Positions 28,225-33,327 of a DNA stretch of 64,000 nucleotides are shown piece by piece. Both the position numbers and the translations under genes were made by a program. The notes under the pieces are model-generated. The model was not told where the DNA came from. It worked only from the letters and a program-made list of their open reading frames with translations, and made no database searches. Source of the DNA: Kiritimatiellaeota bacterium B1221 (lineage in GTDB: Bacteria > Verrucomicrobiota > Kiritimatiellia > SS1-B-03-39 > UBA6053). Location: the NCBI GenBank assembly GCA_029269125.1, contig JARHXX010000015.1:1-64000 (forward strand), written 5' to 3'. Within the stretch, counting starts at the first letter, position 1. Each line of letters opens with the position of its first letter.

Positions 28225-28727
28225 ACTCAGCAAAAGTTGCAATTATTATGGGCTCTGACTCCGATCTCCGGGTGATGGGCGAAGCTGCAGAATTTTTAGA
28301 ACTGATGGAAGTGCCGGTGGAAGTCACGGTGGTATCCGCCCATCGGACACCGGCCCGGTTGTTTGATTTTGCCATGTCGGCGGAAAACCGGGGGATTGAA
28401 GTGATTATTGCCGGAGCCGGTGGCGCGGCACATTTACCCGGGATGGTGGCGGCGATTTCGCCTTTGCCGGTGATTGGGGTTCCGATTAAATCACGAAACT
28501 CGATTGATGGCTGGGACAGTATGCTTTCGATTTTGCAAATGCCCGCCGGAGTGCCGGTGGCCACGGTGGCAGTGGACGGTGCCAAAAATGCGGGCATTTT
28601 GGCGGCGCAAATCTTATCGGTTGCTGATTCGGTTTTGCGTACAAAAGTGAAAAATTACAAAGAAGATTTGAATCAGCAGGTTTTAGATAAGGTAGAGCGG
28701 TTGGAAAAGGGTGGCTGGAAGTCGTAG
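28221..28727 (+). CDS. purE: N5-carboxyaminoimidazole ribonucleotide mutase
   Basis: PurE moves the carboxylate of N5-CAIR to give CAIR, the step after PurK. The 168-residue protein shows the class I signatures MGSDSDL near the N-terminus, SAHRTPARL with the active-site histidine, and GAGGAAHLPGMVA. Length and motifs match bacterial PurE. Its stop is followed at once by a repeat element (28728-28800) that fills the gap to the convergent gene. Confidence 0.96.
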   Translation: MNSAKVAIIMGSDSDLRVMGEAAEFLELMEVPVEVTVVSAHRTPARLFDFAMSAENRGIEVIIAGAGGAAHLPGMVAAISPLPVIGVPIKSRNSIDGWDSMLSILQMPAGVPVATVAVDGAKNAGILAAQILSVADSVLRTKVKNYKEDLNQQVLDKVERLEKGGWKS

Positions 28728-28800
28728 TCGACGCACTCCGTGCGTGGAAATGAAACAAGAGCATAAGCTGAAATTTCCACGCTCGGAGATCGTGGACTAT
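28728..28800. repeat. Second locus of the hairpin repeat seen at the window start
   Basis: A hairpin in one orientation (28728-28748, TCC loop) is followed by the spacer GAAATGAAACAAGAG and then a hairpin in the other orientation (stem 28776-28784 with 28788-28796, GGA loop). The second half matches the array unit at 1-232 almost exactly. It fills the gap between the converging purE and the gene ending at 28804, so it could act as a bidirectional terminator or mRNA 3' stabiliser, as REP elements do. Confidence 0.8.
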
Positions 28801-28803
28801 GGG

Positions 28804-30126
28804 TCATTGCGGTAAGGCCCACTGATTGATGAAAATCTCGTTATCATCATCCAGATCCCCCTGATCATCTTTTCCGTCACTACCCACGGAATAAATCATT
28901 TTTTGTTCTGGGAGATATTTCATGTTTTTCCCGTCAAAAGGATCGAGGGGAATGGCGGATAAAATATTGGGAACTAATTCGGAAAGGGCCTCCGGAAATT
29001 CTCCGTGATCCAAATTATAGAGATGAAGTGCGGCTTGGGTTTTTAATTGCTCAATCGATTTTTGATGAGAATTTTGCAATTCTTTATATAGGTCCATCGT
29101 CCCCGAACTATAACTTTCAAGGAAATCTTTGCCGATGCGGTTAAAGGACTTATAGATGTTTTCCCAATCGGTTTCTGCATAAAAGTGTTCCTGTTCTTTG
29201 ATGCTCTCTTTGTTTCGATATGCTCCTGGAAACTGCGGAGGATCGAGTTTCTGCAATTCGTGTAAAACCATTTCCAGATACCAGGCTTTTGTCCGGTTGG
29301 GTTGATGAAAAAACTGTCTCTGCTTCCACCAATTTAATTCTGAATTATAAAATAATAATTCATCAAAATTGTCATGAGTTTCCGCTTCTTGATATACGGA
29401 TCGGATCGTCTGGTATTCGTTTATACTCAGCCAAACCTTCTGTTGGGTATCAATAGAGGGCAATCCATTAAGATTTTTTATCAGCAATCTAAGTTCATCT
29501 CGACCCGGGGGCTGACCCGCAAAATCGCTTCGGAGTTGATTAAAAAAATAGTTGCTTCCAAATGCCCAACCAAAACATCCATGGATAGAGTATTCCCGGT
29601 TGGCTATGTTTTGAAAGAGATCGCGCATTCGGGTATATTCTCTGATCCGATCTTCCTGGCTGGGGAGTTGCGAAATCTGAAAAAGAAAGACGGCTGCAAT
29701 GTTTTGTCCATGTCGATATAACGGTATTTTCTCTTCAGAATAGCTGATCTCCCACTTGGGTTGATAGTCTCCTTTTTTCATCCCCGCATTCCACAGTTCA
29801 TAAAACTCCCAGTTGTGAAGAACCCAGCCCTGAATTTCCTCCGCATATTTTTCGGGATCATCCAGCATGGCTTGTACCCGATTGGCTTCGGGTAACTCCA
29901 AAAATTTCACCGCTTGCTCAAATTCAAAACGCCCATTCCTTTCCTCCGGAATCGGTTCAGGAGTGACCCACATCATGCGATCGTCTACCGGTTTTACATC
30001 CCAAATTGGGGAGATAAATAAGATCAGCTGAATCAACACGAGCAGACCGATCATCACCAGGGCAAAAATACACCAGTTTTTAATGGGCCACTTGGATGAG
30101 GGCGTGTGAAGGGCTTGGTTGTGCAT
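28804..30126 (-). CDS. Membrane-anchored protein with GspG-like C-terminal tail, unknown function (paralogue 1)
   Basis: Protein of 440 residues. One helix (about 18-40) is followed by FISPIWD and a large, mostly helical exported domain rich in Trp, Tyr and charged residues. The last 75 residues look like the C-terminal half of type II secretion pseudopilin GspG: a helix with LHLYNLDHGEFPEALSELVP, then IPLDPFDGKNMKY, YSVGSDGKDD and an acidic DLDDD stretch, where GspG has its calcium-binding loop. It lacks the type III prepilin leader with a Glu at +5, so it is probably not a true pseudopilin. It is the third gene of the cassette starting at 32617, 8 bp after its paralogue. Function unknown. 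Confidence 0.75.
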   Translation of the reverse strand: MHNQALHTPSSKWPIKNWCIFALVMIGLLVLIQLILFISPIWDVKPVDDRMMWVTPEPIPEERNGRFEFEQAVKFLELPEANRVQAMLDDPEKYAEEIQGWVLHNWEFYELWNAGMKKGDYQPKWEISYSEEKIPLYRHGQNIAAVFLFQISQLPSQEDRIREYTRMRDLFQNIANREYSIHGCFGWAFGSNYFFNQLRSDFAGQPPGRDELRLLIKNLNGLPSIDTQQKVWLSINEYQTIRSVYQEAETHDNFDELLFYNSELNWWKQRQFFHQPNRTKAWYLEMVLHELQKLDPPQFPGAYRNKESIKEQEHFYAETDWENIYKSFNRIGKDFLESYSSGTMDLYKELQNSHQKSIEQLKTQAALHLYNLDHGEFPEALSELVPNILSAIPLDPFDGKNMKYLPEQKMIYSVGSDGKDDQGDLDDDNEIFINQWALPQ

Positions 30127-30134
30127 CGCTTGGA

Positions 30135-31493
30135 TCAGGGAGTGGGAAGATAAAAGATCAGGCCCTCGTTTTTCCAGTCAAAAATATGGGTATGGAAATA
30201 TGCAGGGCTAACGCCTATCTCAGGATTGAGTACACTGTCCGCAAGTTTACAGTAGAGGAATTGCTTTTCTCGAAAGTAGGTGATGTCCTCACCGGTGAAA
30301 GGATCGAGAGGGCGTTGAGTTAGATAGCGGGGGACGAGTTGGCTGAGGCTTTCCGGGAGTTGTCCATGATCCAAGTGATAGCGCTGGAGGGCAATTTGGG
30401 TTTTGAATAAAATCAACTTTTGCCCCATCCAAGAAGAAGCCATCAAATCCATGGGGACCCAAAGCTTGTTTTGGACTTCTAAAAATCTATTTCCACTTCG
30501 GTTGAAGTGATGGGCCAAGCCCAAAAAGTCCCTGGGGGAAACTATGGTGGATCCGATGACGTCCATATTCGTCCTGAGTTCGCCCGGGATCATTTCCGGA
30601 TCTAATTGCTGTAAATTAAATGCATAACTTTCAAAAAGCAGATTCCGGGTACGCCGGGGTTGATAGAAAAAAGTCAGGCGATCGATCGGGTTTTGATCAA
30701 AAAAGCCAAAGGGATCAGAAGAGTTGTTTACTTTTTCATAGAAAGTACCCGCATCTTCACCTGCTTTAAGTTTAGCAAGATCCAGCTGGTACATTTGCCG
30801 TAACATCCAGATGCGGTATGTTTCGTTCACCGGCGGCAACCGGTTTATTTCCTCCGCTAAAACCCGAAGTTGTTCAGGAGTGGGGGGATGAAGGGTGAAT
30901 TCATGTCGAATCTGAAAGACCGCACCTTCGGAAATCGATGCATGTTCCTGGATGCGGGAGACATGAAATTCCCCTTGGGCAATCTGGATTCCCAATTCAA
31001 TTTGTCGGACCCGGTCGCGGATTCGGTCCAGAGGATCCGAAAAGGAGAGGGTACGTAAATTCAGGGCCTGAAAAGAATTGAACGAATGCAGTTTCTCTAG
31101 ATCCTCAGCTGATTCGAACCATGGTCCTTGATAAGCTCCCTTGGCCCTTGCCCGGTCCATGCCCTTAAAAAACAATTGGTTTTGTTGGATCCATTTCAGT
31201 AGTTCTTCCCGAAAGGTTTCCGGTTGGTTCCAAAAGAGATCGAATTGATCTTCTGGAGGCATCACCAAGCTGGCCATGGCGGCTTCTACTTCCTCGAAGG
31301 CATTTTCTTCTGCCGGCATGGGGGTGGGGCGGCATCGCAACACCGCATCGTCCATAAGCGGTTCATCCCAAATGGGAGAGATGAAGAGCCCGGCCGGAAT
31401 AACAATCAGGAGGGTGAAAAACACGCCCCCGAAGATACACCACTGTTTTCGCCCCCAGGGGTTGTGGGGGTGATTCAGGGCCTCGTCTGTCAC
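30135..31493 (-). CDS. Membrane-anchored protein, unknown function (paralogue 2)
   Basis: Protein of 452 residues with the same plan as the downstream gene: a short cytoplasmic start (KQWCIFGG), one helix, FISPIWD, a long helical exported domain, and near the end RYHLDHGQLPESLSQLVP plus RPLDPFTGEDITYF. Both copies also share LQ(K/Q)LDP and an N-terminal PxPxPEE-type segment. Overall similarity is low, so the duplication is old. Unlike its paralogue it lacks the acidic GSDGK tail. The start codon overlaps the stop of the coiled-coil gene at 31490 (ATGA), indicating coupled translation. No enzyme motif is seen. Confidence 0.75.
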   Translation of the reverse strand: MTDEALNHPHNPWGRKQWCIFGGVFFTLLIVIPAGLFISPIWDEPLMDDAVLRCRPTPMPAEENAFEEVEAAMASLVMPPEDQFDLFWNQPETFREELLKWIQQNQLFFKGMDRARAKGAYQGPWFESAEDLEKLHSFNSFQALNLRTLSFSDPLDRIRDRVRQIELGIQIAQGEFHVSRIQEHASISEGAVFQIRHEFTLHPPTPEQLRVLAEEINRLPPVNETYRIWMLRQMYQLDLAKLKAGEDAGTFYEKVNNSSDPFGFFDQNPIDRLTFFYQPRRTRNLLFESYAFNLQQLDPEMIPGELRTNMDVIGSTIVSPRDFLGLAHHFNRSGNRFLEVQNKLWVPMDLMASSWMGQKLILFKTQIALQRYHLDHGQLPESLSQLVPRYLTQRPLDPFTGEDITYFREKQFLYCKLADSVLNPEIGVSPAYFHTHIFDWKNEGLIFYLPTP

Positions 31494-32617
31494 TCGCCCC
31501 CTTCCAGCTCCCGGGTGATTTCAGAGAATTTTTGTTGGAGGGCATCACTATTGAGGGGAACCAAAGCGGGGAGGTGCATATTGCGGAGGGCGCTGAGATC
31601 TTTGACTGCTGACTGCATTTCCTCGGCGAGGGTGGCGGCGATGTTGATGGTCTGATAGGCGTTCATGGCGACTTTGAATCGTTGGTCCAGCGCCTTTTGA
31701 CCTTCGTAGACTTGGTCCCGCACATTTTGTAAATGTTGACGGTAGAGCACCAGGGCGTCGGCGGTGACTTCCTGGGTATTTAAGCTGGATTGCAGCAGTC
31801 CCTGATGTTCCGCATCACTGAAGCGAATGAGGTCTTTGGTTTCTTTCATCAGTTCATCGTTTTGCTTTTCCAGTTCTGCGATGCGATCCAAATAGAGGTG
31901 ATCGACCCGGTCGAGCACCCGTTCGTGGGCGTAAAGCATGGTGTGGATCAGGGTGACATGAATTCCGTAATAGCGCCGGGCGGCTTCGGGGTCGTCGGGG
32001 CTTTGGATGACCAGTTCCTCTAACTGATTATTCAGCAGCCGGATATTATCAAACACGGCGCTGAGATCCATCATATCGGAGCCGGAAATGGAGCTCAGGT
32101 AGAAACGGACCTGTTCTTCGGACAACTTTAGGCCCATATTCTGATAGGCGGTCATCATCCGGTCTACCTGTTCATCCTGTTGAATTTTTAAATTATCGAT
32201 ATCGGTTTCAAGAGCCTCAATTTCTTCGATATATTCCGCACGGGTTTTTTTATAAAATTCCAAAGGGGATTTTTCTTCATCGGCAGACAGGGTGGCTTCA
32301 CGAAGTTCGCGAACTTGGGTTCTGCGTTGATCGATGCGGTTTCCCAGTGACCGGTAGGCTGCCCGTGCCTCGGTGAGGCCGGAAACTTCCATCACTTCCA
32401 GCACCTCTTCCAACAGTTTATTGATGTCCCGGTCCAAATCCTTTTGATCCCGTCCAATCCATTTGGATGGCGGGAGGCTTCCGCGGGTCGCTTCGAGATC
32501 GATGACCTCTAATAAAGGATCTTTACTCTGTTTCCAAAGGGCTTGAGGATTCTCTTCAGCACGCGGGGTCAAGGGGACGAATAGACATGCGCAAAGCAGA
32601 AGGCTGGGTGTTTTCAT
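31490..32617 (-). CDS. Exported coiled-coil protein, first gene of an unknown three-gene cassette
   Basis: Protein of about 375 residues from the ATG at 32617; longer upstream starts would only extend into the promoter region. The signal peptide (LLLCACLFVPLTPRAEE) is followed by an almost entirely helical mature protein, highly charged with long heptad stretches at about 70-170 and 255-290 (DRIAELEKQNDELMKETKDL). A short loop, SSISGSDMMDLSAVFDNIR, breaks the helices in the middle. There is no beta-domain or anchor, so it should be a soluble periplasmic rod. It is the first of three overlapping or nearly abutting genes, with a deacetylase gene 56 bp upstream. Confidence 0.75.
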   Translation of the reverse strand: MKTPSLLLCACLFVPLTPRAEENPQALWKQSKDPLLEVIDLEATRGSLPPSKWIGRDQKDLDRDINKLLEEVLEVMEVSGLTEARAAYRSLGNRIDQRRTQVRELREATLSADEEKSPLEFYKKTRAEYIEEIEALETDIDNLKIQQDEQVDRMMTAYQNMGLKLSEEQVRFYLSSISGSDMMDLSAVFDNIRLLNNQLEELVIQSPDDPEAARRYYGIHVTLIHTMLYAHERVLDRVDHLYLDRIAELEKQNDELMKETKDLIRFSDAEHQGLLQSSLNTQEVTADALVLYRQHLQNVRDQVYEGQKALDQRFKVAMNAYQTINIAATLAEEMQSAVKDLSALRNMHLPALVPLNSDALQQKFSEITRELEGGE

Positions 32618-32673
32618 TCGCAGAGTATAAGGGAAGGCCCGGGAAATGAAAAGCCCAGGCCTTGCCTGTATTT

Positions 32674-33327
32674 TTAAGCAAACAGGTCGCAGATTTCCAC
32701 CCATTCGCAATCGGGGTCGGCAGAGATCCCTGCGATGCAGGCATCAAAGTCCTCCCACATTTTCTCGGTAATCAATTCGTAGGAATGTCCCCAGAAATAA
32801 AAGACGCCTCCCTGCGTTTTGGCCTGCTCAAATTTTTCCTGAAAATCTTCGGCATTAAATTTGCAGGTGGGGTGGAAGGCAAAGGGGCCTTCAGGTGCGG
32901 GAAGCGTCGGGAGAGCGTTTTTAACCGTGCGGCCGTAGACGTGACCTTCTTCTTTGAGAAGTTCTTTGACCGCATCATTGTAGGTGCCGTAAGGATAGGC
33001 AAATCCGTCAATGGGTTGTTGAAAAATATCCTGGAGCTGTTTGCGGTTTTCCGAAATTTCGTAGCGGGCCTCCTCCACCGGGATGGCTTCCAGATGGGGA
33101 TGGTTCAAGCTGTGGTTTGCAATGGTGAAACCTTCGTAAACCGAAACCAATTCGTCGCCGCCCAGCGCGGTCACCTGGGTACCTTTGTATTCCCAGCCCG
33201 GTTTCCGTTGAGGACTGTGCCGGGCGGCATTTAAATTAAAGGTGGCGGTGGCATTATATTTGCGCAGGATTTCGATAAGACGGATATCCGCGGTGATGCC
33301 GTCATCCCAACATTGTACAACTTTCAT
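32674..33327 (-). CDS. Polysaccharide deacetylase (NodB/CE4-like)
   Basis: Protein of 217 residues, which is only the catalytic NodB domain. The metal and catalytic motifs are visible: WDDG (residues 7-10; motif 1, usually TFDDG), NHSLNHPHL (motif 2, H...H metal ligands) and GFAYPYG (motif 3). There is no signal peptide, so the enzyme is probably cytoplasmic or acts on a small substrate; secreted chitin or peptidoglycan deacetylases would need one. It precedes the coiled-coil cassette by 56 bp on the same strand and could be co-transcribed with it, although the intergenic gap also allows a separate promoter. Confidence 0.85.
   Translation of the reverse strand: MKVVQCWDDGITADIRLIEILRKYNATATFNLNAARHSPQRKPGWEYKGTQVTALGGDELVSVYEGFTIANHSLNHPHLEAIPVEEARYEISENRKQLQDIFQQPIDGFAYPYGTYNDAVKELLKEEGHVYGRTVKNALPTLPAPEGPFAFHPTCKFNAEDFQEKFEQAKTQGGVFYFWGHSYELITEKMWEDFDACIAGISADPDCEWVEICDLFA

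Follow-up and report, generated by a model that had tools for sequence, protein, structure and literature searches.

A conserved helical rod with a candidate SPFH partner, and GspG-type domains on two neighbouring membrane proteins, in a Kiritimatiellota genome

We analysed a 64,000-nucleotide stretch of DNA from Kiritimatiellaeota bacterium B1221 (assembly GCA_029269125.1, contig JARHXX010000015.1, positions 1 to 64,000; hereafter the window) and, within it, three adjacent minus-strand genes that a first-pass annotation had described as a cassette for an exported coiled-coil rod and two membrane-anchored paralogues. The rod is the constant part of this locus, and the three genes are not conserved together as a cassette. 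The rod is conserved among relatives, its predicted fold is helical, and within its class it neighbours and co-occurs with a tandem pair of SPFH (Band_7) proteins. The anchored proteins belong to a separate family whose C-terminal domain is, as judged from profiles and a structural model, of the GspG type. Our tentative reading, to which we give somewhat less than an even chance, is that the rod is an envelope factor working with the SPFH pair, in an operon that gained GspG-domain membrane proteins. Neither the rod nor the GspG-domain family was described in the literature that a partial search covered.

The three genes, as read from the open reading frames (ORFs) of the window, are as follows.

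31490..32617, minus strand: rod, 375 residues, all-helical by prediction and probably exported; the conserved member of the locus
30135..31493, minus strand: GspG-domain membrane protein 2 (middle gene; P0002), 452 residues, GTG start
28804..30126, minus strand: GspG-domain membrane protein 3 (last gene; P0003), 440 residues

They are coupled as tightly as first described: the end of the rod gene shares 4 bases (GTGA) with the GTG start of protein 2, and protein 3 follows protein 2 after a gap of 8 bases. Homologues in other genomes confirm all three ORFs as real genes. Gene maps of this and other loci come from a simple script that takes the longest ORFs; some rod start codons were set by hand, and small or overlapping neighbours may have been missed. 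No RNA family scored above its cut-off in the window.

The rod and its SPFH neighbours

The structure predicted for the rod is all-helical, with a predicted local distance difference test (pLDDT) score of 84 and a predicted template modelling (pTM) score of 0.74, in agreement with the helical rod of the first-pass annotation. The export claimed for it is suggested by an N-terminus that, on inspection, resembles a signal peptide. The protein falls into no named family (best Pfam score 14.7 bits against a cut-off of 33; best NCBIfam score 14.1 against 45). Among 12 rods, one matches ATG17_like at 3.8e-7 and one BAR_3 at 1e-4, both of which we take for coiled-coil noise; the best match to a PDB profile, a mitochondrial carrier at E 0.025, was taken as chance. 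Profile-profile comparison rejected kinship of the rod with the anchored paralogues or with GspG, and of the paralogues with the SPFH proteins.

Thirteen of 97 related genomes, B1221 included, carry the rod. It is present in 10 of the 11 genomes of the window's own family in the Kiritimatiellota (G000, which is B1221, to G010), the exception being G007, an assembly that is 86% complete. The genomes with a rod have one match each, apart from G010, where two fragments lie at contig ends. A profile of the 12 rods found matches in 18 of 387 genomes of the phylum; three short matches of about 100 residues (G234, G122 and G126; E 9e-5 to 9e-4) were dropped as chance. A scan of named genomes returned only two, Kiritimatiellota bacterium B12222 and the metagenome-assembled genome (MAG) G004. 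No rod was found on plasmids or viral contigs in one search with the G051 rod only, one with the profile and one with a peptide pattern. In f57, another group of the phylum outside the window's class, all six rods have N-termini that by eye look like those of lipoproteins, with a lipobox-like motif. One lipoprotein-type rod (G150; L094:6255-9374) is followed 9 bases on by an MlaA-domain gene.

A tandem SPFH pair adjoins the rod gene in six of the 13 rod genomes. In five of them (G003, G006, G008, G009 and G010) the pair is convergent with the rod; in G051, which belongs to another family, it lies downstream and is co-directional, and the contig end cuts the second SPFH gene. Both proteins of the pair score above the Band_7 cut-off. 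One of them, SPFH-b, exceeds 500 bits in 13 of the 97 genomes, 12 of which also have the rod, and the second SPFH gene was seen in all 12; G007 has the pair and lacks the rod, while G083 has a rod without the pair. The 500-bit line was drawn after seeing a gap between 560 and 379 bits, and G092 (379 bits, no rod) falls below it. The co-occurrence gives a Fisher P of 2e-13, uncorrected for kinship; for the 86 genomes outside the family P is 8e-4, or 2e-3 when G092 is counted, a value that rests on two cases. In B1221 itself the SPFH pair lies on another contig, C72 (L096:165-4744), where it is preceded by a protein of 205-220 residues (PEP-CTERM in B1221), one of about 407 residues that has no Pfam match in B1221, and one with a prepilin-type start; the gene order is the same in B12222 (L110) and G004 (L112).

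Other rod neighbours also point to the envelope, namely FtsW/RodA (G019), a VCA0040-like undecaprenyl-phosphate translocase (G003) and MlaA (G150). A place in the envelope is plausible and has partial support, which rests on the look of the rod N-termini (weak in the window's own rod) and on these neighbours together with SPFH. The first-pass proposal of an envelope complex keeps its location, while the idea of a three-gene machine finds no support: most of what the annotation had itself named as grounds for refuting it, homologues occurring singly among unrelated neighbours or a match to a known secretion machine, was observed, and the rod of G004 has no paralogues beside it.

A number of observations weigh against an envelope factor paired with SPFH. 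The hydrophobic stretch at the N-terminus of the window's rod is short and weak (best 19-residue mean only 1.03), and fold searches return generic helical bundles only, the best being AhlC (Z 10.5) and then BBK01 (Z 10.4). Rods also stand beside genes with no envelope role: sigma-70 and mevalonate decarboxylase (G005), a tetratricopeptide repeat protein and a sulfotransferase (G001), a P-type ATPase (G006), an Na/H exchanger (G008), TyrS and GH92 (G083), and YchF (G051). Rod and SPFH pair are unlinked in G000, G001, G002, G004 and G005. Most of the rod genomes are close kin, which inflates the P values. Across the 387 genomes of the phylum, six full-length rods of f57 and two of f32 come without an SPFH-b match at E 1e-40, and ten genomes with a weaker SPFH-b (206-401 bits) have no rod match, including in the stretch read around SPFH-b. 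The link between rod and SPFH pair fails outside the window's class.

These observations leave some room for a rod that acts alone, as a structural protein associated with peptidoglycan or the outer membrane, whose SPFH neighbourhood was inherited without a functional link. The six lipoprotein-like rods of f57, with no SPFH pair in the stretch read, would fit such a protein, as would the one of them that lies next to MlaA and the fact that the SPFH-adjacent genomes are mostly of one family. Yet the adjacency recurs in two families with differing gene orientation, and rod and pair are jointly present in 12 of the 13 rod genomes, so that we regard this alternative as possible but rather unlikely. 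Of the functions considered for the rod, working with the SPFH pair has the best support, and we infer it from neighbourhood and co-occurrence.

The three genes as a unit

A second alternative is the one that the gene arrangement itself brings to mind: a dedicated three-part envelope complex in which a soluble rod and two anchored partners work only together. Besides the tight coupling in the window, it has in its favour B12222 (CP120722; G002), of the same genus, where rod and anchored-protein genes abut, the stop and start codons sharing one base. The single anchored protein of B12222 is 44% identical to protein 3, and in a tree it forms one clade with proteins 2 and 3 (support 100/99; protein 2 is a long branch). 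Against a complex of this kind stands the MAG of the same genus, G004 (contig CAKZLZ010000044). Its rod is 89% identical to that of B1221 and has the same flanks, a deacetylase (97% identical) and purE (93%), with neither anchored protein there. No remnant of proteins 2 and 3 turned up in the G004 gap, which is made up of tandem repeats as far as the rod gene's end.

Elsewhere, too, the conserved co-occurrence expected of such a cassette does not hold. In the ten other rod genomes among the 97, neither the contig with the rod nor the region read around that gene holds a match to the paralogue family, several of these contigs being short. Family members instead adjoin unrelated genes: in ten proteins scanned, the neighbours included MscS and AraC, RecA, EamA and a DSP-type phosphatase. 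As a general rule the three-part complex is largely refuted, and we consider it improbable.

Proteins 2 and 3 look rather like dispensable additions. From the clade that unites them with the B12222 copy, one family member probably settled behind the rod before B1221 and B12222 separated. G004 is nearer to B1221 than B12222 is by rod identity (89% versus 74-75%), and loss in G004 is therefore the simplest history.

A GspG-type domain on the anchored proteins

The two anchored proteins are paralogues, as first described (31% identity over 418 columns), with one strongly hydrophobic N-terminal segment apiece. Their features are listed below.

30013..30084, minus strand: protein 3, membrane helix at the N-terminus (residues 15-38)
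28807..29091, minus strand: protein 3, GspG-like domain at the C-terminus (residues 346-440), carrying an SVGSDG loop
31380..31436, minus strand: protein 2, membrane segment at the N-terminus (residues 20-38)
30249..30425, minus strand: protein 2, first half of its GspG-like domain (approximately residues 357-415); the loop motif after it is lost

The family is an expanding one. A 15-member profile of it finds matches in 51 of the 97 relatives, many of them confined to the C-terminal part; one genome has as many as 10, some of which are pieces of one gene. A further member in B1221 (G000:C78:219397-220686) carries one in-frame TAG and is possibly a pseudogene or an assembly error; on contig C171 of G004, a match of equal extent has an uninterrupted reading frame.

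The first-pass annotation had matched none of the three proteins to a known family. The C-terminal domain of the anchored family matches a component of a secretion machine, the type II secretion major pseudopilin GspG. Aligned by hhalign with 12 GspGs from related genomes, the family profile gives E 7.9e-8, while three unrelated profile pairs used as a control give probabilities of 0.1-1.2%; its best match in the PDB is again a GspG (2kep, E 0.032). The model of protein 3 (pLDDT 84, pTM 0.79) agrees. On structural realignment its best three matches are all GspG/EpsG (Z 9.0, 8.9 and 8.6), and it superposes on 3gn9 with Z 9.0 and 2.3 Å over 86 of 112 residues at 24% identity. A Z of 9 is modest, yet the GspG match predicted for protein 3 agrees with the sequence evidence. 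Foldseek alone gave no match for protein 3 at E 0.001 or better and placed GspG outside the first 50; the realignment raised it. The Pfam model T2SSG (PF08334) counts against the assignment, since it scores protein 3 at 17.2 bits, under the cut-off of 21, and does not match protein 2; with E allowed up to 1, it matches 4 of the 15 family members. SxGxDG is the motif of the calcium-binding loop of GspG. Protein 3 carries this motif as SVGSDG, and in protein 2 the position reads CKLADS, the motif being lost.

Could proteins 2 and 3 be pseudopilins that have degenerated from a type II secretion or pilus machine? The GspG-like domain would fit, yet we hold this to be very unlikely, as all 15 aligned members lack a class III prepilin signal (N_methyl matches none of them even with E allowed up to 1, and their first 60 residues contain no GFxxxE-type motif), the membrane helix of protein 3 lies about 300 residues away from a domain helix that starts at residue 343, and true GspGs are encoded elsewhere in the same genome, on contigs C83 and C70.

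Proposed explanation

We propose that the rod is a periplasmic envelope factor that most likely works with the SPFH membrane-scaffold pair, its export being suggested by the N-terminus. It may contact the SPFH assembly and brace or tether it towards the cell wall or outer membrane. In the ancestor of B1221 and B12222, a member of the multi-copy family would have settled behind the rod gene, to which it is tightly coupled in both; it is now present as two old copies in B1221 and absent from G004. With one membrane helix, a large helical domain, a GspG-type C-terminal domain and no pilus context, proteins 2 and 3 would be accessory, perhaps serving as binding modules that sit at the outer surface of the inner membrane and are co-produced with the rod. 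Stabilisation by calcium would be expected in protein 3 only.

A broader version, which we consider doubtful, is that the rod founds a family of exported helical partners of SPFH pairs, lipid-anchored in one group, as a periplasmic counterpart of NfeD, to which one genus added GspG-domain proteins. SPFH scaffolds are widespread and most of their bacterial roles are unclear, so a conserved exported partner, if true, would be a handle on envelope function in a barely studied phylum. The GspG-type domain on many-copy, non-pilin membrane proteins is the less expected result of our analysis; it would mean that a module of secretion pili has been reused for another purpose.

Flanking features

Three further features flank the genes.

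32674..33327, minus strand: polysaccharide deacetylase (NodB type), the upstream neighbour, probably its own transcription unit
32624..32652, minus strand: promoter-like site, TTTTCA-17-TATACT, whose end lies 6 nt ahead of the rod ATG
28727..28800, plus strand: one palindromic repeat unit between purE and the protein 3 stop codon

The NodB-like deacetylase lies just upstream, where the first-pass annotation had placed it. Between it and the rod, the promoter-like site is kept in G004, and in B12222 its first hexamer has one change (TTTCCA), so that it is found in three species while the gap around it is largely variable. A promoter scan found 5 such sites against a shuffle mean of 5.3, that is, no excess, and the evidence for this site is its conservation. 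Because it stands directly before the rod start and is kept in three species, the transcription unit probably begins with the rod, and the deacetylase probably forms a separate one. The rod transcript may perhaps be leaderless.

The repeat, of 60-65 bp and often in tandem arrays, occurs at positions 1-230 and 28727-28800 of the window and at L045:7850-8237. Its 25-base core, with up to 1 mismatch, has 50 copies in B1221, 39 in G004 and 0 in G001, G002 and G003; a reversed control pattern gave 0. The counterpart gap in G004, 400 bases to the end of the rod gene, is filled by about six tandem 65-bp units where proteins 2 and 3 are missing.

Comparison with known systems

The anchored family resembles GspG (PulG, EpsG; PF08334, TIGR01710) in the profile and fold of its C-terminal domain and, in protein 3, also in the SxGxDG loop. 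It differs in having no prepilin signal and in the 300-residue helical part that separates membrane helix from domain, GspG being a small protein whose membrane helix continues directly into the domain; its copies are scattered, with none beside gsp genes in the loci read.

The rod invites comparison with PspA/Vipp1 and other long helical hairpins, as its residues 209-342 superpose on Vipp1 (7o3w: Z 8.7, 2.8 Å, 131 residues). The PspA/Vipp1 matches (Z 8.0-8.8) lie among other helical bundles at 8.0-10.5, and a Foldseek search with the rod listed 6zvr, of this ESCRT-III group, at E 0.48 and probability 0.99. PspA and Vipp1 are cytoplasmic, whereas the rod appears to be exported.

The SPFH pair is like HflK/HflC and other paired SPFH proteins (PF01145) in being a tandem pair with a hydrophobic N-terminus. 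Its two members score 21.5 and 38.3 bits against the NCBIfam hflK model, short of the cut-off of 159.4. According to a survey of SPFH proteins in prokaryotes published in 2009 (PMC2636767), SPFH1, 2 and 5 have NfeD as their operon partner, and there is also a type of adjacent pair, SPFH11a/b. For the pair considered here, the candidate partner is instead a helical rod.

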